From a virus: a stretch of DNA of 64,000 nucleotides. The notes beneath the pieces are model-generated. The model saw only the letters and a list, made by a program, of their open reading frames with translations. It did no database searches and was not told the DNA's origin. The position numbers and the translations under genes are program-made. Location of the stretch: IMG/VR virus record IMGVR_UViG_3300031746_000003, positions 1-64,000 of that record. One strand, given 5' to 3'. Below are positions 12,728 to 39,946 of the stretch, in pieces. The stretch's first letter is position 1, and each line of letters begins with the position of its first letter.

Positions 12728-12756
12728 CTTATGCCGCACAACCCGGTAAGCTTGCA
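12728..12756 (-). promoter_or_regulatory. Minus-strand promoter P3 (helicase-primase-polymerase)
   Basis: TGCAAG (12756-12751), 17 bases, then CATAAG (12733-12728), read on the minus strand. It has the same geometry as four other minus-strand sites in the window. The helicase ATG is 33 bases downstream, with a good ribosome binding site between. Confidence 0.6.
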
Positions 12757-12820
12757 AAAGGGGGGACGCACCCTGCCCTACCGCTTGCAAAGCTGTCAAC
12801 AAAATATCGATGTGCACAAT

Positions 12821-12854
12821 AGCTTGGGGAGCCAGCTGCCTAACTCCCCAAGCT
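12821..12854 (-). terminator. Hairpin closing the 13-17 kb genes
   Basis: A perfect 10-bp stem (AGCTTGGGGA / TCCCCAAGCT) with a 14-base loop lies directly after the gene ending at 12861. No clear T-run follows, so termination may be partial. It separates that gene from promoter P3. Confidence 0.6.
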
Positions 12855-12860
12855 GTAGGG

Positions 12861-13178
12861 CTACACGGATGGAGCTTCACCTAGGTGCTCTGCTAGACCG
12901 CTGGTGTCTAGGTCGAGGCCCGTCTTGTTGGTTCCTGTGGCCCCGTCACCTAGGTGCATCTTTGCTAGGTCTCTCTCCATGGAGTCCTTCAGCACCTGAA
13001 GGTACTGCATGGTCTCCTGCGACCAGACCTGCGCCTCTCCTTTAGTCCAGCCGTGGGTATAGCCCGTCTTGGAGCTCACGAAACCAGCTACAGCTTTCAG
13101 TTGAAGCGTAGTGCCCATGAAGTCCACTTCTAGGCTACCGATGGCTAGGCCATCAAACTTAGGAGTTCCCAGTATCAT
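12861..13178 (-). CDS. Hypothetical protein of the replication block
   Basis: This 105-residue protein has an N-terminal beta-like part (residues 1-35, 'GLAIGSLEVDFMGTTLQLKA') and a helical centre 'SQETMQYLQVLKDSMERDLA'. It overlaps the upstream gene by four bases (ATGA) and is the last gene before a hairpin. No family recognised. Confidence 0.7.
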   Translation of the reverse strand: MILGTPKFDGLAIGSLEVDFMGTTLQLKAVAGFVSSKTGYTHGWTKGEAQVWSQETMQYLQVLKDSMERDLAKMHLGDGATGTNKTGLDLDTSGLAEHLGEAPSV

Positions 13179-13465
13179 ATGTCGCCCGCATCGGGTGCTA
13201 GCAGCTTCATACCCGCGTTAGTGAGTTCTCTAGCTTTGTTAAAAGCCATTACGCCAGCTTGGTGAACTGTGTCGCTGCTCTGCGCGCACTGCAGCGTGAC
13301 TGTCGTAGAGCACTTCAGTTCACCGTAGGCCAGTGACCTACCAACCACAGAGCTCACGGTAGCTAGCACCGGGCAGTCAGCTGCTATCAAGCTGAGTGGG
13401 TCGTCTGCGTACCACTCATCATGCTGTACCGATTTAGCGTCCTCTATAGTCCTAGTTGTCTTCAT
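13175..13465 (-). CDS. Hypothetical protein of the replication block
   Basis: The product has 96 residues and overlaps both neighbours by four bases, which makes translational coupling likely. It has a segment of small hydrophobic residues around 30-55 and three scattered Cys. No domain recognised. Confidence 0.68.
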   Translation of the reverse strand: MKTTRTIEDAKSVQHDEWYADDPLSLIAADCPVLATVSSVVGRSLAYGELKCSTTVTLQCAQSSDTVHQAGVMAFNKARELTNAGMKLLAPDAGDI

Positions 13466-13887
13466 GGTATCTCGATCTTCGAGGGTCTGTGAAACTTGTT
13501 GGTAGTCTTAGTGAAGTGCTCAAGAGACTCTGCTGGTATGTCCTTCTTAGCAATAGCCGCCCGCACCCTGGTCTTATCCAAGTTGTAAACTCGTTGTGTG
13601 CTAACAGTGCCCCCGACTGATAGGAATTTGTCATTACCTAGCAGGTCATATAGAGCTTGTGCGTCGTACGCGACGGTCGTCTGGAACAGTTCGAATGACC
13701 CGCAAGACACCCCCAGTGCTTTGGTGGCCTTCTCAGCAGCTTCTAGTAGGTCGTTGTACTCGTTGGCTAGCGCGCTAAATTCCTCGAACACGCTGCTGTG
13801 CTTCTGCTGAAAGTCTCTCAGGCGAGTGGCAGCCTCCTCAAAGTGAGCCACCTCCTTCAGGTCTTCCACGTTTACTTTCTTAGCCAT
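13462..13887 (-). CDS. Coiled-coil hypothetical protein
   Basis: The 141-residue protein starts with a long helical region (residues 5-60, with 'FEEAATRLRDFQQKHSSVF' and 'EYNDLLEAAEKATKALG') that reads as a coiled coil. A compact C-terminal part follows. It overlaps the glycosylase gene by 8 bases. The helix plus small domain layout suggests a protein-protein adaptor. Confidence 0.7.
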   Translation of the reverse strand: MAKKVNVEDLKEVAHFEEAATRLRDFQQKHSSVFEEFSALANEYNDLLEAAEKATKALGVSCGSFELFQTTVAYDAQALYDLLGNDKFLSVGGTVSTQRVYNLDKTRVRAAIAKKDIPAESLEHFTKTTNKFHRPSKIEIP

Positions 13888-14713
13888 TGGGGTCTCCTAG
13901 AACATCAGACTTGTTGACGTCACGCTCACTGGGGATGATCCCCAGGGCTTCTTGCATGTACTTGTCGTACACGTTGGCTGCTAATCGCAGGTCTTCTAGA
14001 AATAGGTCTAGTGGGTTGTCGGGTCTTTTATCGGCCCACATTCTGAGTGCGTAAGCTGGGTGCAGTGTTGGCAGCACCAGGTACCCAACAGTGTTCTGCT
14101 CTGACGGCAGGGTAAGTACACCTTTTACTTTCCTAGCCCACACCTGCTTCTTGTCAGTACGTGAGGGCAGGTACCAAGATCCAGGGATGTCTAGCTGTCG
14201 TGTCTTACCCCGCTCTGACGTTATCGATATGCTCTTGCCCATGACCGCGCTAGTAGCCTCTGCTCCTAGGGTCACTATGAGGATGGGGTCTACCAGATAG
14301 ATCTCCTCCAGTAACCTAGGCCTACAGGCTGCTATCTGAGGTGGTGATGGTGTCCTGTCACGTATCATGGGGAGAGCTACACCCCTGCGATCTTTTCGGT
14401 ACATTGGCGCACCAGCGCCATCAACTGCGTGCTCACAAGATCTACAAGCAACAGTGTACGTGAAGTAAGTAGTGGGTAGACCTAGCTTACCTATAGTGTT
14501 TCTGAGAAGTGCTCCAGCCTTGTCACTGAATGGTCCCTCAGCTGCGTCATCTTCTTCTACTGGTCCATCCCCGATGAACATGATGCCGCGTCGGTCACCC
14601 TGCCCAAAGATGAGTGGCCCCTCCACGTCTTGCCTACGAACCCCCAAGTCGCAGGCTGTGCAGCTCTCCCACTCACCACGTAGCTCCCCTAGAGACTTGC
14701 GTATGTCAACCAT
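13880..14713 (-). CDS. Family 4-type uracil-DNA glycosylase with Fe-S cluster
   Basis: The 277 residues match the family 4 (Fe-S) UDG pattern. C18-x2-C21, C90 and C130 are placed like the four cluster ligands. 'FIGDGPVEEDDAAEGPFSDK' (46-65) corresponds to the GEAPG...G-x-PF motif and H218-P-A-Y is the second catalytic motif. The enzyme removes uracil from DNA. The usual GEAPG is GDGPV here, and there are insertions around 95-125 and 170-205 relative to the compact bacterial enzymes. This may protect the phage genome from deamination, or serve in nucleotide exclusion. Confidence 0.85.
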   Translation of the reverse strand: MVDIRKSLGELRGEWESCTACDLGVRRQDVEGPLIFGQGDRRGIMFIGDGPVEEDDAAEGPFSDKAGALLRNTIGKLGLPTTYFTYTVACRSCEHAVDGAGAPMYRKDRRGVALPMIRDRTPSPPQIAACRPRLLEEIYLVDPILIVTLGAEATSAVMGKSISITSERGKTRQLDIPGSWYLPSRTDKKQVWARKVKGVLTLPSEQNTVGYLVLPTLHPAYALRMWADKRPDNPLDLFLEDLRLAANVYDKYMQEALGIIPSERDVNKSDVLGDPNG

Positions 14714-14734
14714 GTACTAGTGGCCTCCCACCAA

Positions 14735-16501
14735 CTACGGGAATATCTGAGTCGGTTGATTCTGAGCTTTCCATTTACTTATTCCTGGGTGTCCTAGGTT
14801 GTCATAATCAAGAGGACCACCTTCTTCTACAGGCCAATCCCGTAGTGCAGTCTTCAGTTTCTTACACATGCCTATCAGTGGTCCGATGTTGTCTTCGTAG
14901 AACACCACCACTGGTAACTTCTCAACTACCCCTACTCTTGTGGGCCTACCAAGAAGTTGCTGTAGACTATTCCTGCTAGAGAACGGTTCACATACGAGCA
15001 CGGTATCTAGCTCTGGCCAGTCCATTCCTTCTTTGCCGTACTTGGTGATGGCGAAGATGACCTCACGGTTCTTGAGAAACCAAGTTCGCTTGTCTACAGG
15101 TACAGCATGGATCATGAAGCCCCCAGTACTAGGCTTGTCTGTTAGCTCCCTGATGTACTTCTTTTGACGCCTAGCTAGTTCCCTAGCTATCTTATCCGCT
15201 ACTTCACACTGTTTTAGCGTCTGGTTAAGTGTATCAAGTCTGTCCCGCATCTCTTGCACCTTCATGGGGTGCATACCGACTATCTTTAGCTGGCTGTCTA
15301 ACCCAGCTACCTGTAGCCCAATCCTCTTCACCTTGGTAGGCGGGAGTACCACAGGGTTTAACGTCTCGCCAACGTCCTGTGGTGTAGGTATCGGTATATC
15401 AGAGTACAGCTGAACACAGTTGGGGTCAGCCCACAGCGCCGCCAGATTTACTGTCTCATCCACAGAGTCGGAGAGCACCAACACTTTCCTGCCGGACGCT
15501 CGGGCAGCTATGACGTCAGCCAGGATTATGTCTAGTCGCTGTCTCCATTGACCGAAGTAGCCAGCCAACATTGCCCTGTGCTCTTTACCATTCTTGTCCC
15601 TAACCCTGGCTCTTGGGTTCGTCTCGTCTACGGCTAGGCCAGTCCACTTGAAATAGATCTTGGGCTTCAGTGTCTGCGTTAGATCTTTGTAGAGCACCTT
15701 GCCTATGTGGAAGTCATGGATGATGTGTAGACCATCTGCTCTGATGGGGGTGGCTGTCAGCCCGTAACGACTACCGTAGAAGATGTCAGCACTCTTGGCG
15801 AAGGTAGGTGCTGAGATGTGGTGCGCCTCATCCCAGATGATGATACCGAACCATCTACGTACTTCTTCTGGTAGCGTGTCTGCTTGAATAGCTAGTGTCT
15901 GATATGTGGCTAGGACAAGAGGTTTTTTCCAATCGAATTGGTCCGCTTGTATCAGCCCCAAGTCTTCTCTAGCAATTCCTAGTAGCTCTACTGCCTGATC
16001 TGCCCATTGGCTAAGCAGCTGTGTGTTGTCCAGTACCACTAGCGCAGGTACCTGAGCCCTAGCGATTAGCTCCAGGGCAACTACAGTCTTACCCTTACCA
16101 CAGGCTAACTGCAGCACCCCACCAGGCTCACGCTGTAGGGCACTCAGCGATTTGGCCTGGACGTTGTCCCCCGTGGGGGTGAGCTGTCTCACCCCCTGGG
16201 TCTCCTTCCATAGATGGTCTAGCTTGATTTTGCTGTTGAAGGTTACTGCTGTGTAGCTAGTAGGCCTGCAATCGACAACGTCGAATGGTAGTTCTCCAAC
16301 ACCCCAGAAGGCTCTAGGTACCAGTAGATGGTGCTCCATCTCTTTCCACAGGTAGAGCATGCGGCTCTTAGTAGGAGAGTAGGCATCTACGAAGCTGAAC
16401 GTGAGGGCAGCTTTTGTGCCCTCCACGTTCACGTAGCTTTTCGGTACCCACAAGTAGTTGTCTATGTATCCCTTGGTGGGCTGCCGTTTTAGTAGCTTCA
16501 T
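14735..16501 (-). CDS. SF2 DEAH helicase (UvsW/RecG-side repair type)
   Basis: The 588-residue protein has SF2 motifs in order: Walker A A133-CGKGKT139, D224-E-A-H227, T249-A-T251-PIRADG, and motif VI 'QQLLGRPTRVG' near residue 525. Residues 1-110 form a separate N-terminal domain. This layout is shared by T4 UvsW and by phage helicases that remodel branched DNA at stalled forks. The DEAH core is also used by type I/III restriction motors, but no restriction partner is nearby. The start overlaps the upstream stop (ATGA). Confidence 0.88.
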   Translation of the reverse strand: MKLLKRQPTKGYIDNYLWVPKSYVNVEGTKAALTFSFVDAYSPTKSRMLYLWKEMEHHLLVPRAFWGVGELPFDVVDCRPTSYTAVTFNSKIKLDHLWKETQGVRQLTPTGDNVQAKSLSALQREPGGVLQLACGKGKTVVALELIARAQVPALVVLDNTQLLSQWADQAVELLGIAREDLGLIQADQFDWKKPLVLATYQTLAIQADTLPEEVRRWFGIIIWDEAHHISAPTFAKSADIFYGSRYGLTATPIRADGLHIIHDFHIGKVLYKDLTQTLKPKIYFKWTGLAVDETNPRARVRDKNGKEHRAMLAGYFGQWRQRLDIILADVIAARASGRKVLVLSDSVDETVNLAALWADPNCVQLYSDIPIPTPQDVGETLNPVVLPPTKVKRIGLQVAGLDSQLKIVGMHPMKVQEMRDRLDTLNQTLKQCEVADKIARELARRQKKYIRELTDKPSTGGFMIHAVPVDKRTWFLKNREVIFAITKYGKEGMDWPELDTVLVCEPFSSRNSLQQLLGRPTRVGVVEKLPVVVFYEDNIGPLIGMCKKLKTALRDWPVEEGGPLDYDNLGHPGISKWKAQNQPTQIFP

Positions 16502-17127
16502 GTTACCGGTGTACGTGGTTTAGTGAATGTGACGTGGTCGAATGAGTTGGCCACGGTATGCCCAGCTGATTTCCCCATAGCTCTGATTATCTCAAAGCCA
16601 AGCCTCTTCCACCACGGTACATCTTCTAGCACCGGTTCTGGTACTGCTAGGTAAGAAAGCATCTGCATGCCGGGCTGCTGATGACTGACCGGCACAGTTG
16701 GTGGTCCATAGTAAGCTATATGCGGGGGAGCCGTGAGTGGCGCGTATTGCCATGGTTGGTATTGCGGCGGCTGCTGCTGCACATACTGCGGTTGGTACTG
16801 CTGTGGCTGCGGTGGTGCGAAAGGGCGGGGTGGTTGAAGCTGTACACCACCTGCCATAGCTGGAGTAACAGTTGGCCGAACAAGCGCTTGGCTAGGGATA
16901 AACTGTGGCTGGTATTGTTGAGGCGGCTGCTGTTGCTGCACCTGCTGTTGCGGTGGTTTATTCTTTTCTAGGTTGCTGGCACATGTCCTTGGGGCGCACT
17001 GTGCATACCAGCTACACTTCTCCCTCAGTCTACTATTGTCCTTGGGGTTCACGTAGGCCGGGTCATACCCTCCTTTGCACTCCAGAGCTGTGGGTGACCA
17101 TTGTAGACCGAAGCATTGTGGCGTCAT
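16498..17127 (-). CDS. Cys-headed, Gln/Pro-rich hypothetical protein
   Basis: This 209-residue protein is the first gene after promoter P1, with AAGGAG nine bases before the ATG. The first 55 residues hold six Cys and may bind zinc. Residues 55-150 are an extreme Gln/Pro/Tyr repeat region. The C-terminal 45 residues (PWWKRLGFEIIRAMGKSAGH and onward) look like a folded amphipathic domain. The zinc head, flexible linker and helical tail suggest an adaptor. No function assigned. Confidence 0.72.
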   Translation of the reverse strand: MTPQCFGLQWSPTALECKGGYDPAYVNPKDNSRLREKCSWYAQCAPRTCASNLEKNKPPQQQVQQQQPPQQYQPQFIPSQALVRPTVTPAMAGGVQLQPPRPFAPPQPQQYQPQYVQQQPPQYQPWQYAPLTAPPHIAYYGPPTVPVSHQQPGMQMLSYLAVPEPVLEDVPWWKRLGFEIIRAMGKSAGHTVANSFDHVTFTKPRTPVT

Positions 17128-17163
17128 CTTTGCGATCTCCTTGGCTATTTGAGCCTCAATTCC

Positions 17164-17192
17164 CTTATCACCGTTTATTGTCTAATCTTGCA
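17164..17192 (-). promoter_or_regulatory. Minus-strand promoter P1 (replication block)
   Basis: TGCAAG (17192-17187), 17 bases, then GATAAG (17169-17164) on the minus strand. The gene starting at 17127 follows after a leader of about 30 bases. This is the divergent intergenic region (17128-17231) between the replication block and the virion block. I could not pick out an equally clear plus-strand promoter in it. Confidence 0.62.
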
Positions 17193-17231
17193 GTTGTAAA
17201 TTCGCGCTGTTACGTCTATTCTCGGAGGCCC

Positions 17232-17696
17232 ATGGAGAAGCTCAGCGGACTGATATTGGACTTCTACGACGATAAGAACCGTGAGATAGCTCTCCCTCTG
17301 GAGCGCCTATCAGATCTTACAAAAGAAGCGCACGCTCTTACGGCTGAGGAGCACGCTAGGCTTCCTGACGATCTCTACGCGTTAGTCCTCATGGACGGAG
17401 ACGTCACACTTCGGAAGTTTGCCTGTGTAGACCCCGGTAATACGGCGGTCTCTATAGAGTACTTCTTGAAGACAGCACATAAGCTGCCGGTAGAAGCACA
17501 GAAGGTAGCTGCTAGGAACCTGATTACCGCCTGTGGCTGGTACGGCATAACTCCAGCAGCTGAGTTAGAGAAAATCGCCTTGCCCACTATTACTGGTGCT
17601 CTTAACCTCGCTCAAAATGTTCTTACAGCTAAGAACGTTGCGGGTGAAGTCCGCAGTGGTTTTCAGAAGGCTAAGAGCGGGGTTATCCAGTCATGA
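17232..17696 (+). CDS. Conserved-looking phage protein opening the virion block
   Basis: I chose the ATG at 17232 (154 residues) because GGAGG lies four bases upstream. The frame stays open much further to the left, but that part translates into an unlike, Trp/Arg-rich shadow of the minus-strand gene. The protein begins MEKLSGLILDFYDD and has a compact helical body with 'LPDDLYALVLMDGDVTLRKF' and 'ARNLITACGWYGI'. It is the first gene of the plus-strand operon and overlaps the next by four bases. Role unknown, probably virion-related by position. Confidence 0.8.
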   Translation: MEKLSGLILDFYDDKNREIALPLERLSDLTKEAHALTAEEHARLPDDLYALVLMDGDVTLRKFACVDPGNTAVSIEYFLKTAHKLPVEAQKVAARNLITACGWYGITPAAELEKIALPTITGALNLAQNVLTAKNVAGEVRSGFQKAKSGVIQS

Positions 17697-18601
17697 CTAC
17701 CAAACTTTCTGAGGCATCTGGTACAGACCTAATGCCTTTGAGTGGCCCAGCAGATAGATCTGTAGGTAAGGAGAAAGCAACTGTGCAGAAGTCCGCCTCT
17801 GGTACTGGTAATGAACTACCGCCTGGCGTGGCTAGCGCAGTAGCTGGGGAACAGCCACAGCGGTTACCGCAGGCTTCTAAGATGCATCCACACGTGGACG
17901 TATCTACACAAGAGCCGCCAAGGGTGATAGCTAAGCAGGCTCAGCGCTATGCTCTACCGTCACAGAACAAGTACCCCATAGACAACTATGAGCAAGTTAA
18001 GATGGCCAACTTCTACTTCGAAGAGTGGAGTAAGAGGATGGAGCCTGAGACTCGACGTGAGTACTGTGCCAACCTGGTGAAGAGAGCCTCTGAACTTGCC
18101 TTCGAAGTTACCAGTGATATTGCCAAGTACGGTTCTGCTTCTTACGCAGAGCCGTCTGAGTTTCAGACAGCTATAGACGGTCGCAGAAGTGTTCTGTCAG
18201 ACGACGCTGCTCGTGAGGTACTCAGCAAGTTAGCCGAGCTACGCCCGACTATGCCTGCAGAGGCTTTCGCTATTGCTCTGAGCGAGTTCGATAAGCTATC
18301 GGGGCTAGAGCAGTTCTATGATCAGTACATACCTGACCCGTACTACTCGACATACGGTGTTAAGACAGCTGCTGACGAGGACATGTCGGTTATCGTCGGT
18401 AACGACTACGTCAGCTCAAAGACACTCAAAGATTTTGCTAAGACTCGCTACCAGATGCTGAAGAAGACCTTCGGAGACGATCTGGCTGACGAGTTCCGTA
18501 AAGACCCAGTAGCTATTTTTAGTAGTCTTCCGTTAGACCAGAAGAAGATGGTTATGCGGATGGCTAATGAGAACGCTCCTAGGGATGAAGCGTCAGCTTA
18601 G
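17693..18601 (+). CDS. Hypothetical virion-block protein
   Basis: The 302-residue protein has a disordered N-terminal third (rich in Ser, Pro and Gly) and a helical remainder from residue 95. The segment 'YGVKTAADEDMS' contains the K-x-A type peptide that recurs in this gene block. It is coupled to its neighbour by an ATGA overlap. No catalytic motif is visible. Confidence 0.72.
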   Translation: MTTKLSEASGTDLMPLSGPADRSVGKEKATVQKSASGTGNELPPGVASAVAGEQPQRLPQASKMHPHVDVSTQEPPRVIAKQAQRYALPSQNKYPIDNYEQVKMANFYFEEWSKRMEPETRREYCANLVKRASELAFEVTSDIAKYGSASYAEPSEFQTAIDGRRSVLSDDAAREVLSKLAELRPTMPAEAFAIALSEFDKLSGLEQFYDQYIPDPYYSTYGVKTAADEDMSVIVGNDYVSSKTLKDFAKTRYQMLKKTFGDDLADEFRKDPVAIFSSLPLDQKKMVMRMANENAPRDEASA

Positions 18602-18603
18602 CC

Positions 18604-19416
18604 ATGGATGAGCGTACGGAGATCGAAGCTAACCTCGACTTCGAAGGCCATTTCTTAGATGCGCTGAAGCGCATAGGTGTAAAGCCTAGTCCTAAAGCTC
18701 GGCCGTCTTACGACGAGTCCGACGAGTACACAGAGACGATAGACACCACGCTACCTGATGAAAAGAAGGTGGCAGAGGTACTACCCACACCTATCAATCT
18801 TTTTCAGCACCCAGATGCCCATCCAGTAGTTTTAGATCTGGCCTTGCTTCGTAAGTACGGGCCAGAGTGGATGACCTGGGAAGCTGAGACGTTGGTCTGG
18901 CGGATACCACAGGACTTTAGGACGGCTACGGTGAGCGATCTAAATCTATCTAAGATCATGGCCGTTAAGACCATGCACTTCGTAGATACCTTTTGGAAGA
19001 AGTGGGAAGTTTTTGTGTGGTGCGCTATGCCACTGAACAACTTATTTCCTGACTTCAACCATATGCAGGTACCAACTGCAGCTCAGTGCACAGTCGCTGT
19101 AGACATAGCTAACAACATACGTACCGACGTTGAGTGGAGCGACGAGCTCAAGGCGTATCTAGTTACGGTATTCCAGCATGATGACATCTACTATCCGGTA
19201 GACCCTATTGACTTTTTGACTGTGCCCTCTTTAGGCGTACCCGTTGACACCGCAGAGATAGCTACCAAGTGGTCGAAGGTCAGAGCTGCTAAGAGTGCCC
19301 CATCTGGTAGAACTGTGGTGGATGAGCAGCTGCGTCGGTGCCTCACTATAAAAAACTACGTGGACGAGGCTAGGGGTAGGCTGCACAGCCAGTTAAGGTT
19401 TATGCCTAATGTCTAG
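18604..19416 (+). CDS. Hypothetical virion-block protein
   Basis: This 270-residue protein has an acidic first third and a folded centre with many aromatics ('KYGPEWMTWEAETLVWRIPQ' and 'FWKKWEVFVWCAMPLNNLF'). It follows the previous stop by two bases and overlaps the next gene by eight. No family recognised; a head or connector component is possible from position. Confidence 0.72.
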   Translation: MDERTEIEANLDFEGHFLDALKRIGVKPSPKARPSYDESDEYTETIDTTLPDEKKVAEVLPTPINLFQHPDAHPVVLDLALLRKYGPEWMTWEAETLVWRIPQDFRTATVSDLNLSKIMAVKTMHFVDTFWKKWEVFVWCAMPLNNLFPDFNHMQVPTAAQCTVAVDIANNIRTDVEWSDELKAYLVTVFQHDDIYYPVDPIDFLTVPSLGVPVDTAEIATKWSKVRAAKSAPSGRTVVDEQLRRCLTIKNYVDEARGRLHSQLRFMPNV

Positions 19417-20236
19417 GTTGCACTACCAGATGGCTGGGTTTAACGACGAACTGTTAAAGCTAGCTGGAAGATCACCTAAAGCTATGAGTAACTTACTAGC
19501 TGGCACTGGTAAGTTTCTAAAGAGACAGGTACACAGTGTTACTGGCTGGACACCACAAGGTTTCCTGAACCCAGCTGGGGCAAGAGAACTTGGTGCGGGG
19601 GATATCGACAGTTCTCTGCAGGCGGTAAGTGCCGCTCGTAAGAAGCTACAGGCGGCTAGGACTATGCAACCTGGTATGTTAGACCAGTTGATAGGTAACA
19701 CTACGGCTGACGTTCGACGGAAGGCTAAAAGCAAAGCTACAGAAGAGCTAGCCCAGCACAAGAAGGGGTTAGAGCTATCTCATAAAGCCACTAGTATGGG
19801 GCTTACTAGTATCCCAGGGTACCTTAAGTCCCTGGCTACTAATGGCGTTGGAGACACGATAGCTACTGGGGCGCGACAGCAGTGGCACACTAGTGGCCCA
19901 GTCGGTAAAGGCCTTATGTTCGGATTACCAGCTGCCGGTGTAGCTAGTGCGATTGCCAAGAAGCCAGAAGAGGGGCACACTAGACTTGGTGATACTGCGC
20001 TAGCAGCTTCTATGGCACCAATGGGCCCTATACCCTTTGGTGGGCAGATAGCTATGGGGTTGGGCGCTGACAAGTTGTTCAAGCGTAAGCCCAAGGCGCA
20101 GCAGGTTAGGACGCTACTTCCTGAGTACACGCCACCAGCTACGTCTGAAGCCATCTCTCCTGGAGTGGAGCGGTCTGTAAGCCACTCTGCTGCAGGTATG
20201 CCACCGGGTGACATGCTAGGAGGATCTCCAGGATGA
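19409..20236 (+). CDS. Virion-block protein with F-x-x-x-L-x-K-L-A peptide and Gly-rich centre
   Basis: The 275-residue protein carries FNDELLKLAG at residues 11-20, one of the recurring K-[LV]-A peptides. Residues 150-235 are rich in Gly and Ala ('GKGLMFGLPAAGVASAIAKK') and could insert into or cross a membrane. Such proteins are common among ejected internal virion proteins, but that role is inference. It overlaps the next gene by four bases. Confidence 0.7.
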   Translation: MSRLHYQMAGFNDELLKLAGRSPKAMSNLLAGTGKFLKRQVHSVTGWTPQGFLNPAGARELGAGDIDSSLQAVSAARKKLQAARTMQPGMLDQLIGNTTADVRRKAKSKATEELAQHKKGLELSHKATSMGLTSIPGYLKSLATNGVGDTIATGARQQWHTSGPVGKGLMFGLPAAGVASAIAKKPEEGHTRLGDTALAASMAPMGPIPFGGQIAMGLGADKLFKRKPKAQQVRTLLPEYTPPATSEAISPGVERSVSHSAAGMPPGDMLGGSPG

Positions 20237-20772
20237 CTCTTGAACAGCTAGTTGTAGAGACGCGCAAGGAGTTTCCTGACTTCGTTGTTAAGGCGAAGGT
20301 GAATAGCAAGTTGATGCTGCTCATCAACCGCTTCCTGCTCATCCTAACGTTCGGTGGGATGAAGACGTTCATGACTACGTACACCACTACGATGGGTAAC
20401 ACTGTGTACGTACCTAGCCAGTGGGCTCTGTGGACTGAGCAGTCTAAGGTGCGCATCTTGAGGCATGAGCGTATTCATATGCGCCAGGCTAAGAAGTACA
20501 CGCGACTTCTGTTTTCTTTTTTGTACCTGTTCGTGCCACTGCCAATAGGCTACGCGTACTTCCGAGCTAAGTTTGAGATGGAGGCCTACGAGGAGACCAT
20601 CAGAGCCGCATTCGAACAGGGTGGTATTAAGGCAGTAGAGGACTCGGAATTTAGAGCTCACATCATTAACCAGTTTACAGGCCCAGCGTACTTGTGGATG
20701 ATGCCAGATCGTGTGAAGATGTTCTCTTGGTACACCAAGACGGTGGCTAAGCTAGAGAGTGAAACCACATGA
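20233..20772 (+). CDS. Membrane protein with HExxH metallopeptidase-like motif
   Basis: The 179 residues contain H78-E79-R-I-H82, the zinc ligand and general base pattern of gluzincins, followed by a hydrophobic segment (about 91-110, 'RLLFSFLYLFVPLPIGYAYF') and the acidic stretch FEMEAYEE, whose Glu at 115-121 could supply the third ligand. An earlier hydrophobic stretch is at 27-41. It lies directly before the portal gene with a four-base overlap. A processing peptidase or a wall/membrane-acting virion enzyme are both possible, and activity is unproven. Confidence 0.68.
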   Translation: MTLEQLVVETRKEFPDFVVKAKVNSKLMLLINRFLLILTFGGMKTFMTTYTTTMGNTVYVPSQWALWTEQSKVRILRHERIHMRQAKKYTRLLFSFLYLFVPLPIGYAYFRAKFEMEAYEETIRAAFEQGGIKAVEDSEFRAHIINQFTGPAYLWMMPDRVKMFSWYTKTVAKLESETT

Positions 20773-22697
20773 GCTTTGTAGGCGGCGGGTTTGGCATAGG
20801 TACTTCCGGCGGCTCTGGAGCATCGCGCTTCTCCAGTACGCGTGGGCGTATCAATGGGTCACCGGTACAGGGTGTTAACTACCCTAGTCCGTTCTTCGAT
20901 GTCGCCCACACGTACCTGCCCGTCACGTTCAAGCAGATGTTCCGGTGGTGCCGGTACTACTTCTTAACGAATCCACTCATCAACGCCACGGTCTTTAAGC
21001 TCTCTGAGTACCCCATCACGGAGCTGGTTATTGACCATGAGCGTGCTGACGTAGCTGCCAGGTGGACTGAGTACATGCAGGACCACCTGAGGTACCGCGC
21101 ATTCCAGGTAGAGGTTGGTCTCGACTACCACTGTTATGGTAACGCCTTCGTATCCATAGCCTTCCCCTTCAAGAAGTACTTGAAGTGTTTGTCTTGTGGT
21201 AGCTCTGAGGAAGCGCAGAAAACTAGGGCACGTTGGACCTTCACCAACAACGCCTTCAGGTACAACTGCCCAAAGTGTGGGACCACCACAGAGGCTGAGG
21301 CGAAGGACGAGTACTTCAAGAACGCTAGTGGCATTCGGCTACTACGTTGGAACGCTGAGTATGTGGAGATCACGTACAATGAGGTCAGCGGTGAGTACAT
21401 CTACTTCTACACGATCCCTCCCACGCTACGTAATGACGTAGTGATAGGTAAGAAGGACGTAGTAGAGAGCACCCCGCAGGTGTTCCTACAAGCTATGCGT
21501 GAGGGTAAGGGAGTTGTCTTCTCGAAGGACAACTTCTTCCACCTCAAGCGCCCGACACTTGCACAGCAAGATCGTGGGTGGGGTATCCCACTGATTCTCC
21601 CGGTACTTAAAGACACTTTCTACCTGCAGCTAATGAAGAAGGCTCAGGAGGCGATTCTTCTTGAACATATTGTCCCTCTACGCGTGCTGTTCCCACAAGC
21701 TGGGTCTGGGTCCAGTGACCCGTACACAACTATCAATCTCGGGGAGTGGCGTGACCAAGTAGCTTCTGAGATTGGCCGTTGGCGTATGGACCAGAACTAC
21801 ATACCCATCATGCCTTTGCCTCTTGGTAACCAAACCATTGGTGGCGACGGTAAGGCCCTGCTGCTGACGCAAGAGATACAGCAGTGGAGTGAGCAGATCA
21901 TGGTGGGCATGGGAGTACCACGTGAGTTCCTCATTGGTGGTATGAGCTACGCTGGTACCAACGTCTCCATGCGTATGTTGGAGAACGCGTTCTTCGGCTA
22001 CATCCTGCGCCACAAGCAGATGGCTAAGTGGGTCATGAAGATGGTGTCTGGCTACATGGAATGGCCGGAAGCCAACATCCGCTTCAAGCCGTTCAAGATG
22101 GCTGACGACATTCAGCGCAAGGCTCTGATGCTGCAGCTGAACCAGGCACAGAAGATCAGTGACACTACCCTGCTAGCCGACTCTGACCTTAAGCAGGATG
22201 AAGAGAACGGCATCATGCTCCGTGAGACGGACATGAGAGTTGCTGCCACTAAGCAGCAGCAGTTGGCCATGGCTCAGATTCAGGGTGAGGTCCAGGTCAT
22301 CATGGCCAAGGCGCAGGTGAAAGCGCAGCAGGTAGCCATGGAAGCTCAACAGGGTGCTGTTGCTCCTGGTGAACCTGGTGAGGGCTTTGGCCAACAGGTA
22401 CAGAGCCCTATGAACGCCGGGCAGAGTTTGCAGCAGGGTGGGCAGCAGCAAGCTGGTTTGGACATTAACCAGATGGCACAGAGCTACTCTAAGCAGATTC
22501 AATCAATGCCTCCAGGTGACCAAGAGATGGCGATGCAGAACATCACTACTCAGAGCCCAGAGCTCGGGCAGCTAGTTAGGCAGCTGGTAGCACAAGATCG
22601 AAAGAGCGGGCAGCAGGGTACTCCACCAGCACCTGGTGTTGACATGCGCCCTATGCCTGAGCAGCGTGCTCCACGGCGTGCTGCTGGTATGGTGTAG
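20769..22697 (+). CDS. Portal protein with a zinc-ribbon insertion
   Basis: The 642 residues fit a portal: a Gly/Ser-rich N-terminus, 'FRWCRYYFLTNPLINATVFK' (58-77), a long central domain with 'GMSYAGTNVSMRMLENAF', and a Gln-rich helical C-terminal third (about 470-640) matching the barrel and tail of portal rings. A four-Cys ribbon (C140-x2-C143, C167-x2-C170) is inserted in the early clip-side region. The portal is the dodecameric DNA entry channel at one capsid vertex. The identification rests on pattern and on its place in the virion block. The terminase lies 19 kb away. Confidence 0.78.
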   Translation: MSFVGGGFGIGTSGGSGASRFSSTRGRINGSPVQGVNYPSPFFDVAHTYLPVTFKQMFRWCRYYFLTNPLINATVFKLSEYPITELVIDHERADVAARWTEYMQDHLRYRAFQVEVGLDYHCYGNAFVSIAFPFKKYLKCLSCGSSEEAQKTRARWTFTNNAFRYNCPKCGTTTEAEAKDEYFKNASGIRLLRWNAEYVEITYNEVSGEYIYFYTIPPTLRNDVVIGKKDVVESTPQVFLQAMREGKGVVFSKDNFFHLKRPTLAQQDRGWGIPLILPVLKDTFYLQLMKKAQEAILLEHIVPLRVLFPQAGSGSSDPYTTINLGEWRDQVASEIGRWRMDQNYIPIMPLPLGNQTIGGDGKALLLTQEIQQWSEQIMVGMGVPREFLIGGMSYAGTNVSMRMLENAFFGYILRHKQMAKWVMKMVSGYMEWPEANIRFKPFKMADDIQRKALMLQLNQAQKISDTTLLADSDLKQDEENGIMLRETDMRVAATKQQQLAMAQIQGEVQVIMAKAQVKAQQVAMEAQQGAVAPGEPGEGFGQQVQSPMNAGQSLQQGGQQQAGLDINQMAQSYSKQIQSMPPGDQEMAMQNITTQSPELGQLVRQLVAQDRKSGQQGTPPAPGVDMRPMPEQRAPRRAAGMV

Positions 22698-22699
22698 CC

Positions 22700-24028: not shown

Positions 24029-24033
24029 TAGCT

Positions 24034-24058
24034 AGAGAAGATTGGCAGTCTCTTCTCT
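24034..24058. terminator. Bidirectional terminator between convergent genes
   Basis: AGAGAAGA pairs perfectly with TCTTCTCT across the loop TTGGCAGTC. It lies between the plus-strand virion gene ending at 24028 and the minus-strand methyltransferase ending at 24064. A hairpin with almost the same nine-base loop lies at 39183-39201. The palindrome GCACTAGTGC (24061-24070) overlaps the methyltransferase stop. Confidence 0.65.
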
Positions 24059-24063
24059 GGGCA

Positions 24064-24612: not shown

Positions 24613-24648
24613 GCTGTAACCTTTCATAGGGTGGATTCCCTCATCTCT

Positions 24649-24677
24649 ATTATCCCCAAAAACAGCCTAAAATTGAG
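24649..24677 (-). promoter_or_regulatory. Minus-strand promoter P4 (methyltransferase cassette)
   Basis: CTCAAT (24677-24672), 17 bases, then GATAAT (24654-24649) on the minus strand. The core CAATTTT...GGGATAATAG is identical, with identical spacing, to that at 39918-39946. The methyltransferase start is about 37 bases downstream. Confidence 0.68.
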
Positions 24678-24687
24678 CTAAAGAAAA

Positions 24688-24712: not shown

Positions 24713-26020
24713 CTAGTCCACTTGGTTATACGGCTCTCTGAGCTTGAGGTCGTCACTGACAACTACCAAGTGTCCCCAGTCAGCTGGCTTCCTACCCCAA
24801 CCTGACGGGACTACACACCAGACAACCTCTGTCCCTACTGGTGGAGTAGCTGGGGCATCTCCATCTCCGTCAGTTAGGTAGATGATAACGTCTGGCTTTG
24901 GTCTCAGCTTTAAGGCAGCTGCTATAGCTGGCTTGAAGCTAGTGCCCCCTCTGCCATACAGCTTCAGGTCCGGCACCTCATGAACACTGACTCTTCTTGG
25001 CTCACAAGCTACCTCGGCGTCAGCATCTAACAGCCAGGCGCGTTCTACTCCTAGCTGTTTCAAGATGGCTATGATCTCTGAATTAACAGAGTTGATCTGA
25101 ACATCTCCCATTGACCCTGACGTGTCACGTATCAGGCATATCTCAATCTTGCGGTCTATCATCCCAGGCCTGAGGATGCCTGTGAAGTAAGACCTCTTAG
25201 CTGGGCGACGGAAAGAGTAATCGCGTGTACCAGCAATCGCACGACCACTGGTACGTCTAACTACCCTACCTAGCTTAGTACGCCACGGGATGATGGAAGG
25301 CTGCTCTTCGAAGTCCACCAGGTCTTCTAGACCAGCTGGCATGTACCCACGGTTACTGGCAGTTAGCGTAGACGTGGCTTTCTTAACGTCCTTAGCTGTC
25401 TCCTTCTTGATACGAAGGACATCTGCCGGAGCACGCCCATGCTCTTTAGCTTCTTGGGATGTTCCCTCACCAGCGTGTGGGTTACCAGCACAGCTACCAC
25501 ACTGCCCGTTGGTTACCTGTGGTTTACCGTGGCCCTCACCATCCTTCGTATCGCCATCCTTAGCAGCACCAGCGGTCCCCTCACCTTTCTTACTCTTCTT
25601 TGCTCTGGTCTCTAGCAGATCGTAGTACTGCTCCAGAGAAAGATTAGTAGGGAAGCCGTATTGTTCTGGGTATGCTCCTCCAGCAGGCAGTTGCCAACCA
25701 GCATTTCTGAGGTCCTGGTTTATGGCTATGTCCCCAGCCAGATTAGCCTGGTAGTGGTCTGGTAGTGCATCCAACCTGGCTACGTCGCGCAGAATATGCA
25801 TGCACTCATGCACGAGTAACCCAGCAGCTTCTTCTGCATTGTGCTTCGTGTACCACTCAGGGTCTACGGTCAACACCATGCTTTTGGAAACTCCTAAGGT
25901 ACCTATAGGAGCAAGTACAGGCACTAACCCATAAAGGGTTTTGGCGAAGTACGGTGCGCGAGATACTACTAGAGCCCTGGCTGTTGCCAGGGCCTCCAGG
26001 CATTGCTTTTCTTTATCCAT
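24713..26020 (-). CDS. VWA protein with N-terminal metallopeptidase-like domain
   Basis: The 435-residue protein has two domains. The N-terminal one contains H71-E72-C-M-H75, a zincin-like HExxH. A low-complexity linker (about 138-200) follows. The C-terminal VWA domain carries the MIDAS sequence D299-T-S301-G-S303 and later 'GRGGTSFKPAI' and 'IIYLTDGDGD'. This two-part layout matches DUF2201-type proteins that pair with MoxR ATPases. VWA partners usually select the client that the ATPase remodels. It is the last gene of a six-gene operon, overlapping the ATPase stop (TGATG). Confidence 0.85.
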   Translation of the reverse strand: MDKEKQCLEALATARALVVSRAPYFAKTLYGLVPVLAPIGTLGVSKSMVLTVDPEWYTKHNAEEAAGLLVHECMHILRDVARLDALPDHYQANLAGDIAINQDLRNAGWQLPAGGAYPEQYGFPTNLSLEQYYDLLETRAKKSKKGEGTAGAAKDGDTKDGEGHGKPQVTNGQCGSCAGNPHAGEGTSQEAKEHGRAPADVLRIKKETAKDVKKATSTLTASNRGYMPAGLEDLVDFEEQPSIIPWRTKLGRVVRRTSGRAIAGTRDYSFRRPAKRSYFTGILRPGMIDRKIEICLIRDTSGSMGDVQINSVNSEIIAILKQLGVERAWLLDADAEVACEPRRVSVHEVPDLKLYGRGGTSFKPAIAAALKLRPKPDVIIYLTDGDGDAPATPPVGTEVVWCVVPSGWGRKPADWGHLVVVSDDLKLREPYNQVD

Positions 26021-27243
26021 CAGAGGTACTTGGACGCATCACTGAGTCCAACCTTAAGAACGACTTTGGCGGCTACGGCTTCTAGGCTCGCATGGTCTTT
26101 ACGCCCCAGCTTCTTGTTTATCAGAATCTTCACAGCTATACCTGCGATGTCTGTCAGGCCAGCCTCTGTCATGTCGAACAAACGTTCCCATGCTAGGGCA
26201 GCTAGGCGTACACGCTCACTCTTATCGGTAGTCCCCACCACCAGGGCCGTGAAGCTTCCACAGACTGCGATGGACCTATCCAACCTCTTGGAGTCTACCT
26301 TCCAGCCCTTCTCTAGGACGTCAAGGGGATCTGGGAGGTCTGCATCTGCTTCCCACGCGGCCCACTCTGTAGACGCACCCTCACCTACCAGCCCTTGCAC
26401 GAGGATGGTCTCTAGCTGCTTAGGCAGACCTAGACAACGCACTGTGGCGATGGCTCGGCCAGCCATGTACCAAGTGCGTGGTGAAGGCCATGGCAACCCA
26501 GCAGCAGGGCTACCAGGGGCTGGCTGACTGTGGAAGACACTGTTGTTACTGCGCATGAACGCATAGAGGGAGCCTTTTACAGCAGCCCAGTGCCTGTTCC
26601 AGTTCTTCTTAACCAGATCTTCCCCGTTAGTTATGGGGGTTACTGCCACGTCGTCGTCCTCTGACATGAGGTACTCACCCCACTTGTCCACAGGCATCAC
26701 ACCAATATTGAAGTGTGCCATCCTGTTGGCGAACGCAGCTTCTAAAGCCCAACCACCTGCTGCGTGCTCTGGTGGGTTCGCTGCTAGTAGGATTCGGATG
26801 TTATTGGACATCTTCATGTCCCCTACCTTGCGCTCGTACACGGTACTCATAGCAGCACCCTGGACAGCCGGTGGTGCACAGCTGGCCTCATCAATGACCA
26901 GAACACCAGAGCCCACCTCCATAAGCTTACGGATGGCGGGCATCATGCACTCTATCGTGATCCCCTTGGGCCCAGGAACCAGCACACCTGAGAAGTCCTC
27001 AGGCTGCTTAGTAGCCGGGTACACCACCTCGCAGTGCAGCCCAGCCTTGGCTGCACCCAGTTCTATTCGCCCAGTCTTAGCGATGCCGCTAAGCCCCCAG
27101 AAGATGCAGGGCAAACCCCACATGCAGTCTGGACTATTGGGGTCGCCTCTAACCGGTACCAGCAAGGAGCAGTACACGATATCCTCGAAGTACGGCTCTA
27201 CGTCCGGCAGACTGTCCTTCTTCACTACTGTATCTTTGCCCAT
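26020..27243 (-). CDS. MoxR-type AAA+ ATPase
   Basis: The 407-residue protein has Walker A G50-LSGIAKT57, Walker B ending D118-E119 ('GVLVIDEASCAPPAVQ'), sensor 1 N156 ('ILLAANPPEH') and an arginine finger candidate at R174 ('FANRMAH'). These features and the adjoining VWA gene place it in the MoxR/CobS group, whose hexamers remodel or insert cofactors into protein complexes. The family is known in phages, often labelled CobS/CobT-like. The substrate here is unknown. The start lies in a TAATG overlap with the upstream Cys-rich gene. Confidence 0.87.
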   Translation of the reverse strand: MGKDTVVKKDSLPDVEPYFEDIVYCSLLVPVRGDPNSPDCMWGLPCIFWGLSGIAKTGRIELGAAKAGLHCEVVYPATKQPEDFSGVLVPGPKGITIECMMPAIRKLMEVGSGVLVIDEASCAPPAVQGAAMSTVYERKVGDMKMSNNIRILLAANPPEHAAGGWALEAAFANRMAHFNIGVMPVDKWGEYLMSEDDDVAVTPITNGEDLVKKNWNRHWAAVKGSLYAFMRSNNSVFHSQPAPGSPAAGLPWPSPRTWYMAGRAIATVRCLGLPKQLETILVQGLVGEGASTEWAAWEADADLPDPLDVLEKGWKVDSKRLDRSIAVCGSFTALVVGTTDKSERVRLAALAWERLFDMTEAGLTDIAGIAVKILINKKLGRKDHASLEAVAAKVVLKVGLSDASKYL

Positions 27244-27815
27244 TAGTATTTCCCGTTCGGTGCGTTAACCATGCAGAATTCAGAACACCCATAGCGCCAA
27301 CACCTGAAGTGGGTACCTTCAGCGCACTCGTTACCCTGTGAGATATGCGGCCACAGCCGGAAGTCCTCACTCAGCCTTTTTAGGCAGCTGATACAGATGA
27401 CTGTTGGTGAGTCATCTAAACTACTAAAAGTAGGAGTGCCTTGGTCTTCCGGGGAGCGCTTAGAGCAGTGGAGCTCGCCGTAGGTGGCGAGCCCCATTAC
27501 TTCCACTTCCCGAATGCCACTGGAGCAGCAGCTGCACTCCAGTACAGCGTAATCATCTATTAGTGGTGGGAGGTCTTCTACAGTCTCCCTCAGCTCTTCT
27601 ATCACGTGCTCCCAGCAAGTGAACTCAAAGAAGTGTGGGTTGTAGCCATCTATCGGGCATACCTCGATACCACTAGGTTGTATTGCTGCGTAGCCAACCT
27701 GTAGTAGGTATACCTCATCTGCATACAATATTGTGTCTAGGCAGCTTCTGCAGACATGCCCACTCTTGTACACCTCCCGTTCTAGCGCAGCGTCTATCTC
27801 TAGACTCTCTTCCAT
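27243..27815 (-). CDS. Cys-rich zinc-binding protein of the AAA+/VWA operon
   Basis: From ATG 27815 the product is 190 residues; a GTG at 27845 gives 200 with a longer overlap. It has many Cys in pairs: C22-x2-C25 (HVCRSC), a C-S-C-C cluster near 103-106, C-x2-C (VICISC), and a C-terminal group CWRYGCSEFC. At least two zinc sites are likely. The acidic stretch around 50-95 may be a binding surface. Placed directly upstream of the ATPase, it could be an adaptor that links clients to the MoxR-VWA pair. That role is inference. Confidence 0.72.
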   Translation of the reverse strand: MEESLEIDAALEREVYKSGHVCRSCLDTILYADEVYLLQVGYAAIQPSGIEVCPIDGYNPHFFEFTCWEHVIEELRETVEDLPPLIDDYAVLECSCCSSGIREVEVMGLATYGELHCSKRSPEDQGTPTFSSLDDSPTVICISCLKRLSEDFRLWPHISQGNECAEGTHFRCWRYGCSEFCMVNAPNGKY

Positions 27816-28381
27816 AACACGGTCTCGCGTTCGACTCTTAACCACCTACGGTTAATCGTTTCGATCCTCATGTCTGGGTAAGCACCTGTATCCATGTCCA
27901 TGTCCCTCAAGAGCATCACTAGTTCTGTGGCGTCTGCCCCTCGGTCCATATGTAGCCTCCTTGCGATCTCGGTAGACTCCGGTATGAACTCCGGGTACTG
28001 CTGCCGAAGTAGTAGTTCACGCTCGTACAGGTCGTCTGTCAGATCTTCAGTGTCTAGACACAGTCCATACCAGCCAGTATCCGTCGTAGATAGATACTCG
28101 CTATTGAGCCAGGGACACCAATCCCCAGGCTCAGCAATCTCCAGTAGCACCTCCAGATCACGCTGGTTGCAGAACGTGAAGAAGTCCTTCTGGTCCACCA
28201 GTTTTGCTCTAATGCCACCCAGAGCTCTTCCAGGTATAGGTGCGTACAGACTCTGTATTGTCCAGAGCCTACTGCTTATCCCTGGGTCGGCTATTTGATA
28301 GCCTATGATCCCAAAGGATTCCTGAATCATTCTGGTGCCAGGAAATGTGAATAGTGGGTCCTGGGAAGGATTAACCAGCAT
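27800..28381 (-). CDS. Hypothetical protein of the AAA+/VWA operon
   Basis: The 193-residue protein starts behind AAAGGGACAAC. It has an aromatic- and Asp-rich middle ('FFTFCNQRDLEVLLEIAEPG' and 'CPWLNSEYL') and a helical, acidic C-terminal third ('ELVMLLRDMDMDTGAYPDMR'). No catalytic motif is visible. Its stop overlaps the next start by 16 bases, so it is translated with the zinc-binding protein. A candidate client or co-factor of the ATPase, family unknown. Confidence 0.7.
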   Translation of the reverse strand: MLVNPSQDPLFTFPGTRMIQESFGIIGYQIADPGISSRLWTIQSLYAPIPGRALGGIRAKLVDQKDFFTFCNQRDLEVLLEIAEPGDWCPWLNSEYLSTTDTGWYGLCLDTEDLTDDLYERELLLRQQYPEFIPESTEIARRLHMDRGADATELVMLLRDMDMDTGAYPDMRIETINRRWLRVERETVLWKRV

Positions 28382-28398
28382 GTTGTCCCTTTGTTTTG

Positions 28399-28476
28399 TT
28401 ATCTTCGTCTAGAACTCACCCACAGAAGTAGTCCGTTGAACACCCCGGTGGTAAACGCCCAGAAGAACAAACCCAC
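28399..28476 (-). CDS. 25-residue single-pass membrane peptide
   Basis: A GTG overlapping the TAG of the upstream gene (TAGTG) opens a 25-codon frame: a hydrophobic stretch (GLFFWAFTTGVFNGLLLWV) ending in SSRRR. This is one membrane span with a positive end. It fits tightly between two genes of the operon, so it is probably translated by coupling. It is short enough that chance remains possible. Confidence 0.42.
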   Translation of the reverse strand: MGLFFWAFTTGVFNGLLLWVSSRRR

Positions 28477-28613
28477 TATTTCTCTGAGTCCTCACCATCG
28501 TCGGAGGGTGTCTCCTCAGGTATGCCGAATAGTTCATCTACGTCTTGTTCAAAAGAACGCCCAGAGTTGTCGTCGTCACTTTCAGAGTCAGGTTTAGCAC
28601 CTGGACCTATCAT
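28476..28613 (-). CDS. Small acidic protein, first gene of the AAA+/VWA operon
   Basis: The frame encodes 45 residues from an ATG with GGAGG five bases upstream. It is extremely acidic (about 16 Asp/Glu) with the short hydrophobic motif 'DVDELFGIP' in the middle. Acidic peptides with one such helix often act as DNA mimics or as docking partners. It is directly behind promoter P2, and a leader of only about ten bases is expected. Confidence 0.65.
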   Translation of the reverse strand: MIGPGAKPDSESDDDNSGRSFEQDVDELFGIPEETPSDDGEDSEK

Positions 28614-28628
28614 GTTGCCTCCATTGCA

Positions 28629-28657
28629 CTTATCCCCGATACAATTAGATACTTGCT
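28629..28657 (-). promoter_or_regulatory. Minus-strand promoter P2 (AAA+/VWA operon)
   Basis: AGCAAG (28657-28652), 17 bases, then GATAAG (28634-28629) on the minus strand, matching P1 and P3 in geometry. It lies in the divergent gap (28614-28700) between the operon and the RNA polymerase gene. No matching plus-strand site was evident in this gap. Confidence 0.6.
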
Positions 28658-28700
28658 TGATTGTTATGGGGACCTGTAGTCTGCTAGGATAGGTACAGAA

Positions 28701-39175: not shown

Positions 39176-39182
39176 TAGCTAA

Positions 39183-39230
39183 GAGAGTTTGCAGTCCTCT
39201 CCCCACGTACTACCAGGAGTTGGTAGTACG
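39183..39230. terminator. Tandem hairpins between convergent genes
   Basis: The first hairpin is GAGAG / CTCTC with loop TTTGCAGTC (39183-39201), nearly the same loop as at 24034-24058. The second is a perfect 10-bp stem CGTACTACCA / TGGTAGTACG with loop GGAGT (39206-39230). The second overlaps the stop of the minus-strand gene at 39210. Together they can stop transcripts from both sides. Confidence 0.65.
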
Positions 39231-39380
39231 CCAGCCACGTGGCTTGCCCCGAGGTGCAGGAGGCTCAGGCCTTTCGACCTGGCACCTCACGTCCACTCGG
39301 ACTGCCACGGGGGGCGGGGGGTAGTCATCCGAGAAAGGTTCTCGGGCGACTATCTCCAAGGAGGTGTGTACCGAGTTCAT
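39210..39380 (-). CDS. Small Pro/Arg-rich protein of the GC-rich cassette
   Basis: The 56-residue frame starts in an ATGA overlap with the stop of the upstream gene. The first half is acidic and Pro-rich, the second basic (RPEPPAPRGKPRGWR). GC content is visibly higher than in the flanking virion genes. It is the second gene of an independently transcribed two-gene cassette. Function unknown. Confidence 0.6.
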   Translation of the reverse strand: MNSVHTSLEIVAREPFSDDYPPPPVAVRVDVRCQVERPEPPAPRGKPRGWRTTNSW

Positions 39381-39820
39381 CGGCACATCTCCTCGGATAC
39401 CCTGAGGTCCTCTTCCGAGAGCAGCCAGCACCCTAGGGCTGCCAGGTCCTCCTGGCGGTCCATCAAGGCAACGTGGTCGTCCTTTCCACCCACGCCCCCG
39501 CCCTCACCCCACAAGGCTTGCCCACCGTAGGGCGCCCCCTCGATGAGCTCGGAGATATCCTTCAGGACTGCATCCGGCAGTCCATGAAGAAGCTCCAAGG
39601 CCTTATCAAAGGCCTCGTCATCGTCGGGGTGGTAGCTACACCCATCCGGACAACCCACAAGGTGATCGGCAGCGAGCTCCACCGCCTGGAGGCGGTGTCC
39701 TTCCGGCTCACCGTAGCCACTAGACGCGAGGAACTCCAACATCGGCCTTGACCTCCAGTAGGCGCAGGACCTGAGCATCGTGACGACAGCCAGGGTCATG
39801 ATAACCCTGACTTTCGTCAT
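39377..39820 (-). CDS. Hypothetical protein of the GC-rich cassette, two possible starts
   Basis: From ATG 39820 (AAAGGAG upstream) the product is 147 residues with a hydrophobic N-terminus, 'VRVIMTLAVVTMLRSC', that could be a signal or lipoprotein-like anchor. A second in-frame ATG at 39742 has GGAGG nine bases upstream and would give a 121-residue soluble form starting MLEFLASSG. The body is acidic and helical ('DEAFDKALELLHGLPDAVLK') with C-x3-C near 57-61. Composition is GC-rich. It is flanked by promoter P5 and a terminator, so it is a moron-like unit. Confidence 0.62.
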   Translation of the reverse strand: MTKVRVIMTLAVVTMLRSCAYWRSRPMLEFLASSGYGEPEGHRLQAVELAADHLVGCPDGCSYHPDDDEAFDKALELLHGLPDAVLKDISELIEGAPYGGQALWGEGGGVGGKDDHVALMDRQEDLAALGCWLLSEEDLRVSEEMCR

Positions 39821-39917
39821 TATGCTGTGGCTCCTTTCCAGTGCTTCGCACTTGGTTATCGTTACGTTGAGGGGCACAAATCCCTCGCCTTGTGCATTGA
39901 TGTTCGGCATCAATACT

Positions 39918-39946
39918 ATTATCCCTAAAAAGACTTGAAAATTGCC
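39918..39946 (-). promoter_or_regulatory. Minus-strand promoter P5 (GC-rich cassette)
   Basis: GGCAAT (39946-39941), 17 bases, then GATAAT (39923-39918) on the minus strand. It shares the CAATTTT...GGGATAATAG framework with P4. The start at 39820 is about 90 bases downstream. An in-frame ATG lies only a few bases from the expected transcript start. Confidence 0.68.

Follow-up and report, generated by a model that had tools for sequence, protein, structure and literature searches.

The window analysed here is the first 64 kb of the 120,344-bp viral record IMGVR_UViG_3300031746_000003. It contains five minus-strand sites that share one layout, NNCAA[GT]-N17-[GC]ATAA[GT], and the question is whether these are promoters and, if so, which enzyme reads them. 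A first-pass annotation, made from the sequence alone, proposed that they are promoters, perhaps of two subclasses, and did not identify their reader. We consider it very probable that the five sites are real promoters of a single class, common to a family of large bacterial viruses whose genomes code for a single-chain RNA polymerase and a sigma factor of bacterial type. Transcript, binding and in vitro data are lacking, and we regard it as likely that an injected phage RNA polymerase, guided by the phage's own sigma factor, uses these sites as early promoters.

All five 29-mers were confirmed on the minus strand with the layout exact (Table 1), and a search for CAAK-N17-SATAAK on both strands of the window returned these five and no others. 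By chance 0.65 strict matches would be expected in the window, and none of 100 dinucleotide shuffles gave five or more. Alternative spacings from 10 to 25 gave only 0-2 matches per strand. As the pattern had been derived from these very sites, a fairer test is the remaining 56 kb of the record, which the first-pass annotation had not seen. It contains two additional strict matches (84873-84901 and 107106-107134), each on the minus strand and closely upstream of minus-strand genes.

When the seven strict sites are aligned, the -10 box is extended to GGGGATAAt/g, and six of the seven have T and G at six and seven bases past it, which is the expected start position. This TG step played no part in site selection and had not been used in the first-pass annotation. 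With every dinucleotide and all 15 offsets allowed, only 39 of 200,000 random sets showed a comparable alignment. A profile scan adds intergenic sites near positions 69393, 83647, 98380, 107742 and 108694 of the record. At 108683-108733 (L003:4883-4933) two copies of the motif overlap in opposite directions, the flanking genes ending at about 108656 and starting at about 108798.

The earlier claims can now be compared with these sites. The -35 element was said to be unlike TTGACA, and this holds: there is no TTGACA-like -35 in the alignment. The -10 was said to be one base from TATAAT, which holds in part, GATAAT being present in two of the five sites and the other sites differing by two bases. 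The absence of plus-strand copies is true in the window, and a few weaker ones lie outside it (69431, 98380 and 108722). The division into two subclasses is not supported, because the two additional strict matches fall between them (CAATTTA...GGGGATAAG and CAATATT...GGGGATAATAG); further profile matches carry GGTATAAT.

Table 1. Features of the locus. Coordinates are those of the window unless stated; promoters and their starts are predictions.
Feature	Coordinates	Strand	Remarks
Promoter TGCAAG-N17-CATAAG	12728..12756	-	Exact match; upstream of dnaB (11313-12695) and a primase/DNA polymerase/UvsX-like run
Promoter TGCAAG-N17-GATAAG	17164..17192	-	Predicted start ~17157; upstream of 16498-17127 and helicase/uracil-DNA glycosylase genes
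Promoter CTCAAT-N17-GATAAT	24649..24677	-	Strongest match; predicted start ~24642; upstream of 24064-24627
Promoter AGCAAG-N17-GATAAG	28629..28657	-	Predicted start ~28622; divergent from the RNA polymerase gene; heads minus-strand run 28613 to 24713
Promoter GGCAAT-N17-GATAAT	39918..39946	-	Predicted start ~39911; upstream of ORF 39377-39913
DnaB-like replicative helicase	11313..12695	-	First gene after promoter 12728; PHROG 19 E=3.5e-40, Pfam DnaB_C
DNA helicase	14735..16501	-	In the run served by promoter 17164; PHROG 16 E=5.6e-35
ORF of 209 aa without known function	16498..17127	-	First after promoter 17164; conserved in relatives
Gene run after promoter 28629	24713..28613	-	phrog_1297 ATPase (26020-27243), DUF2201/VWA protein (24713-26020)
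Single-chain beta-beta' RNA polymerase, 2150 aa	28701..35153	+	One open frame; NADFDGD intact, residues 1413-1419
Divergent sigma factor, 247 aa	99906-100649 of the record, outside the window	virion strand	Sigma70_r3 above cut-off

A megablast search of positions 12000-30000 of the window against phage records gave no match. Through DNA polymerase homologues 44-61% identical we found related contigs, the largest 196 kb long, and these contigs carry the same motif, again mainly on one strand. Several sites are conserved in position among these relatives, while their spacer sequence is not. The place orthologous to site 17164 is occupied in L005 (88-123), G003 (12479) and G004 (32408), and the equivalent of site 24649 follows the orthologue of 24713-26020 in G003 (19336) and G006 (150990). 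A divergent site adjoins the polymerase gene, as site 28629 does here, in G001, G003 (23751), G004 (22968), G006 (146747), L095, L100 and L101; none was present within 400 bp in L091-L094, L098, L099 and L102. Site 39918 is kept in the closely related contig G001, and no orthologous site was found in more distant relatives. Site 12728 is the weakest of the five, and with a leave-one-out rank of 86 it must be considered individually weak; the dnaB orthologue of G003 has a similar site at 7602, 32 nt upstream.

Two features of the genes themselves may be mentioned. The DUF2201/VWA protein and phrog_1297 ATPase (24713-27243, minus strand, in the window) are also neighbours in G003, G004 and G006, where the pairing is conserved, and resemble a phage MoxR-VWA-type module. 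Within the replication run, 13880-14713 (minus strand) encodes a protein of the uracil-DNA glycosylase superfamily, which PHROGs weakly assigns to a DNA polymerase family.

When the octamers found upstream of genes are counted without bias, the -10 of the motif ranks first or close to first in G000, G003, G004, G006, Salmonella phage Arash and Vibrio phage D69. The top words are GGGGATAA, GGGATAAC and GGGATAAG, with GGTATAAG in Arash and GTTATAAG in D69; the form in G006 is GGGCATAA. No such word was recovered by this count in G007, which is an incomplete contig. We also searched 21 unseen records, selected solely for encoding the polymerase or the sigma factor, with CAA-N16-GGGATAA. There were 53 matches, compared to 0 for the backward pattern. 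The motif was found in 15 of the 21, its copies within a record lying nearly always on one strand, and was absent at this strict stringency from the other 6.

The spacing was scanned in six genomes with CAA-N(k)-G[GT]NATAA[GCT] for k = 10-24, where k = 16 equals the 17-bp spacing defined above. There is a sharp peak at k = 16, where 37 noncoding sites lie on the opposite strand to the polymerase gene; k = 17 gives 10, and most other values give 0-6. In coding DNA k = 16 gives 8 and 3 on the two strands, and the reversed control 6. Matches to iterated profiles are likewise mostly noncoding (14/21 in G000, 28/36 in G003, 24/29 in G004, 13/23 in G006, 9/19 in G007, 31/37 in Arash and 27/34 in D69), although noncoding DNA makes up only 9-15% of each profiled genome. 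The profiles were refined on their own matches, so these fractions describe the set and are not a test of it, and the gene calls behind them are approximate, having come from a simple caller. The first-pass annotation had said beforehand that its proposal would be refuted if the motif were as frequent inside genes as between them. It is commoner between genes, and the proposal is supported.

A pair of boxes lying upstream of genes, at a constant distance of about 17 bp from each other, matches the layout of a bacterial-type sigma-dependent promoter. It could be objected that the motif is a signal of another kind conserved between genes, for instance an operator or a processing site, given that transcription data are absent. 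Against this are the fixed two-box layout, the -10-like box with the TG step six bases on, and the position of the translation start, which usually lies 20-60 bases downstream of the motif. We regard this alternative as all but excluded. The promoter reading is supported for the five sites, the TG step in six of the seven strict sites being indirect evidence of a start in place of transcripts.

A second objection is that these are ordinary host promoters, read by host sigma-70 or sigma-28 with the host core enzyme, the phage sigma factor being unrelated to them. In favour of this, the -10 is TATAAT or GATAAT at some sites, and the motif resembles the sigma-28 consensus, the strongest sites having TCAATTTT-N11-GGGGATAA where the consensus is TAAAGTTT-N11-GCCGATAA (PMC2859248). 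However, a -35 of the TTGACA type is not present in the site alignment, and the noncoding upstream regions of G000, G003, G004 and G006 contain no sigma-70 match with two or fewer mismatches. The motif is moreover kept across divergent phages of differing GC content and differing hosts (Arash and D69), while its -10 shifts by phage group. Host promoters are therefore a very unlikely explanation.

One candidate for a component of the reader is the product of the gene divergent from site 28629. In Pfam order this product has Rpb2 domains 3 and 6 followed by Rpb1 domains 1, 2 and 5, with a beta/beta' match in NCBIfam, and it aligns to solved beta' chains, the beta' clamp region being shortened and diverged. 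It thus has beta and beta' domains together with NADFDGD, as required of a multisubunit-type RNA polymerase.

The second candidate is the sigma factor. Its Sigma70_r3 match scores 35.8 bits against a cut-off of 25.3, and the profile of its family matches SigA chains with E=9e-17. No match to Sigma70_r2 was found anywhere in the record. Evidence for the domain 2 fold comes from a predicted model of the G003 orthologue, which is 53% identical (pLDDT 85, pTM 0.46). The top Foldseek list for this model consists almost entirely of sigma factors, and the model superimposes on SigA domain 2 at 2.2 Å over 91 residues (Z 9.6), which is modest for a helical fold. Through this orthologue we consider the fold of sigma domain 2 to be present. 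Superposition of the whole chain is poor, possibly reflecting a different domain arrangement. The best curated matches are to FliA/WhiG, and the sigma-28-like sites described above agree with these nearest families, the -35 likeness being confined to the strongest sites. Membership of the FliA/WhiG subfamily itself was considered and rejected (TIGR02479, 35.4 bits against 189.6).

A search of viral contigs with the single sigma sequence found nothing, and an alignment query was needed to obtain 25 contigs with the sigma factor. The polymerase is present in 22 of these, there as one chain of more than 2000 aa. The three without it are 66, 111 and 113 kb long, are among the shorter contigs, and are probably incomplete. 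The motif class and its conservation, the two genes, and their co-occurrence are thus shown directly; recognition of the motif by the sigma factor, and its working with this polymerase, are inferred.

Homologues of both proteins were found by tblastn in Salmonella phage Arash and in Vibrio phages D69, D148 and D181, and the polymerase is split into two ORFs in Arash and D69. The virion proteome of Arash contains the polymerase and the sigma factor: detection is highest for the beta chain Gp206, with 3516 spectra, the beta' chain Gp216 has 1210, and the sigma factor Gp10 has 467 with 100% coverage (PMC10585845). The authors caution that abundant enzymes in virions may be carry-over, and their paper does not contain the word 'promoter' (PMC10585845). 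On the basis of the presence of both proteins in the virions of a cultured relative, these promoters are probably the first that the phage polymerase reads after infection. Packaging is known for the Arash homologues only. Arash and D69 also encode a second sigma factor (Gp196 and VPHD69_0246, respectively) with a clearer region 2, and the assignment of motif to sigma factor is therefore unproven in these two phages. Gp196 is not in the virion table across its Gp194 to Gp197 rows (PMC10585845), and BLAST did not find a Gp196-like second sigma factor in the present record.

It might be argued that the motif is read by the phage sigma factor bound to the RNA polymerase of the host, and that the phage polymerase serves, for example, late transcription. 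Phage sigma factors usually work with the host core enzyme (PMC7598289), as do T4 gp55 and SPO1 gp28; the sigma factor and motif co-occur, and the host core would be on hand from the start. However, the sigma factor is found together with a single-chain polymerase in nearly all the contigs that carry it, both are in Arash virions, and the sigma-bearing jumbo phages of two reviews have no polymerase of their own (PMC7598289, PMC13282480). We consider use of the host core unlikely.

Alternatively, the promoters could depend on the sigma factor but be middle or late ones, the sigma factor acting only once it has been newly made during infection and not on injection. It is indeed encoded on the virion strand, and the motif is found upstream of its gene in G003, G004 and the loci L067, L069 and L070, so that it could amplify its own expression during infection. 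The sites nevertheless precede replication and other non-virion genes, in Arash and D69 they hardly ever stand before virion genes, and the sigma factor is already present in Arash virions. A purely middle or late role is thus very unlikely. Self-amplification is suggested by these upstream sites and by the weaker plus-strand copy at 98380, which heads the gene block holding the sigma gene. Most sigma loci have no motif site within 600 bp, and autoregulation would therefore be optional and not universal.

We therefore return to early promoters of an injected phage enzyme as the preferred reading, and hypothesise the following. The promoter would consist of a -35-like tCAA(t/g), a 17-bp spacer and an extended -10, GG(G/T)ATAA(G/T), and transcription would begin 6-7 bases further on, at the G in the TG step. 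Its reader would be the beta-beta' polymerase programmed by the phage sigma factor. Both would be produced late, alongside the virion genes, then packaged and injected with the DNA, and the injected holoenzyme would use the motif promoters to transcribe non-virion genes, those for replication among them, early in the next infection. This early use is inferred.

The virion genes would use something other than the motif promoters. The first-pass annotation had found no plus-strand counterpart before them, and this holds; in the cultured relatives 70 of 71 profile sites are on the non-virion strand (37/37 in Arash and 33/34 in D69). In Arash and D69 a TAAAATA(TA) box, which resembles the T4 late promoter, stands before several virion-strand genes, and at 109249, 137631 and 139407 of Arash it lies inside the spacer of a divergent early promoter, forming what may be compact early/late switches. 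A plus-strand late motif was sought in the present phage and not found. Two genes of the virion block may be noted separately. On the plus strand, 54506-56956 encodes an 816-aa protein whose N-terminal domain is ferritin-like (Pfam E=3.9e-13); on the minus strand, 43708-44418 encodes an HTH_17/MerR/excisionase-like regulator, which is conserved in relatives and has no clear motif site.

Tailed phages with cell-like beta and beta' have been described before as mReC Caudovirales (Weinheimer and Aylward 2020). They share this feature with the present phage and differ in terminase family, and the 2020 paper makes no mention of sigma factors or promoters. We have not adopted mReC membership, as the large terminase in the window matches PF05876 and not PF03237. 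A putative capsid candidate (51057-52181), whose identity is not established, has no Pfam match, the mReC criterion being PF07068. The closest cultured phages are those discussed above: Arash, D69, D148 and D181 share the homologous polymerase and sigma factor, and Arash and D69 the same design of promoters on the non-virion strand. Arash and D69 differ in their two-ORF polymerase, their second sigma factor and their TAAAATA(TA) boxes before virion genes, none of which was found here.

Among bacterial systems the nearest is that of sigma-28 (FliA) promoters, which share the N11 layout of the strongest sites, the GATAA core of the -10, and the FliA/WhiG best matches of the sigma factor. They differ in that the family-wide phage -35 is only tCAA and the -10 is GGGATAAG, and the phage sigma factor falls far below the FliA cut-off. 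The non-virion RNA polymerase of AR9 with gp226 is likewise a phage polymerase that requires a specificity subunit, but gp226 has no sequence similarity to sigma factors and recognises a uracil-containing box by its template strand (PMC7598289).

N4 and phiKZ are known examples of phages whose virion polymerases use early promoters of their own. Like the system proposed here, that of phiKZ (Chimalliviridae) has a virion-packaged, injected polymerase of the multisubunit type with its own class of early promoters (PMC13282480). The phiKZ enzymes, however, are made of several chains and have no sigma homologues recognisable by sequence (PMC13282480), whereas the present phage has one beta-beta' chain, a genuine sigma factor and a bacterial-type two-box promoter. 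In the open-licence literature searched, no packaged sigma factor was found beyond the Arash proteome.

On balance, and with less assurance than for the promoters themselves, we lean towards a bolder reading: that the tailed phages of a whole lineage inject both their own sigma factor and a beta-beta' polymerase, which most members make as one chain, and that they start infection from private bacterial-style promoters without the host enzyme. How a virion polymerase finds its promoters becomes directly testable in a cultured phage, and early genes can be predicted from the motif in over 20 uncultured genomes. According to the reviews, phage multisubunit RNA polymerases come without sigma homologues, and jumbo phages that encode sigma factors come without a polymerase of their own (PMC7598289, PMC13282480). 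A lineage with both, and with promoters recognisable by eye, departs from each of these statements, and would offer a virus-carried single-chain polymerase that retains the logic of bacterial sigma factors.
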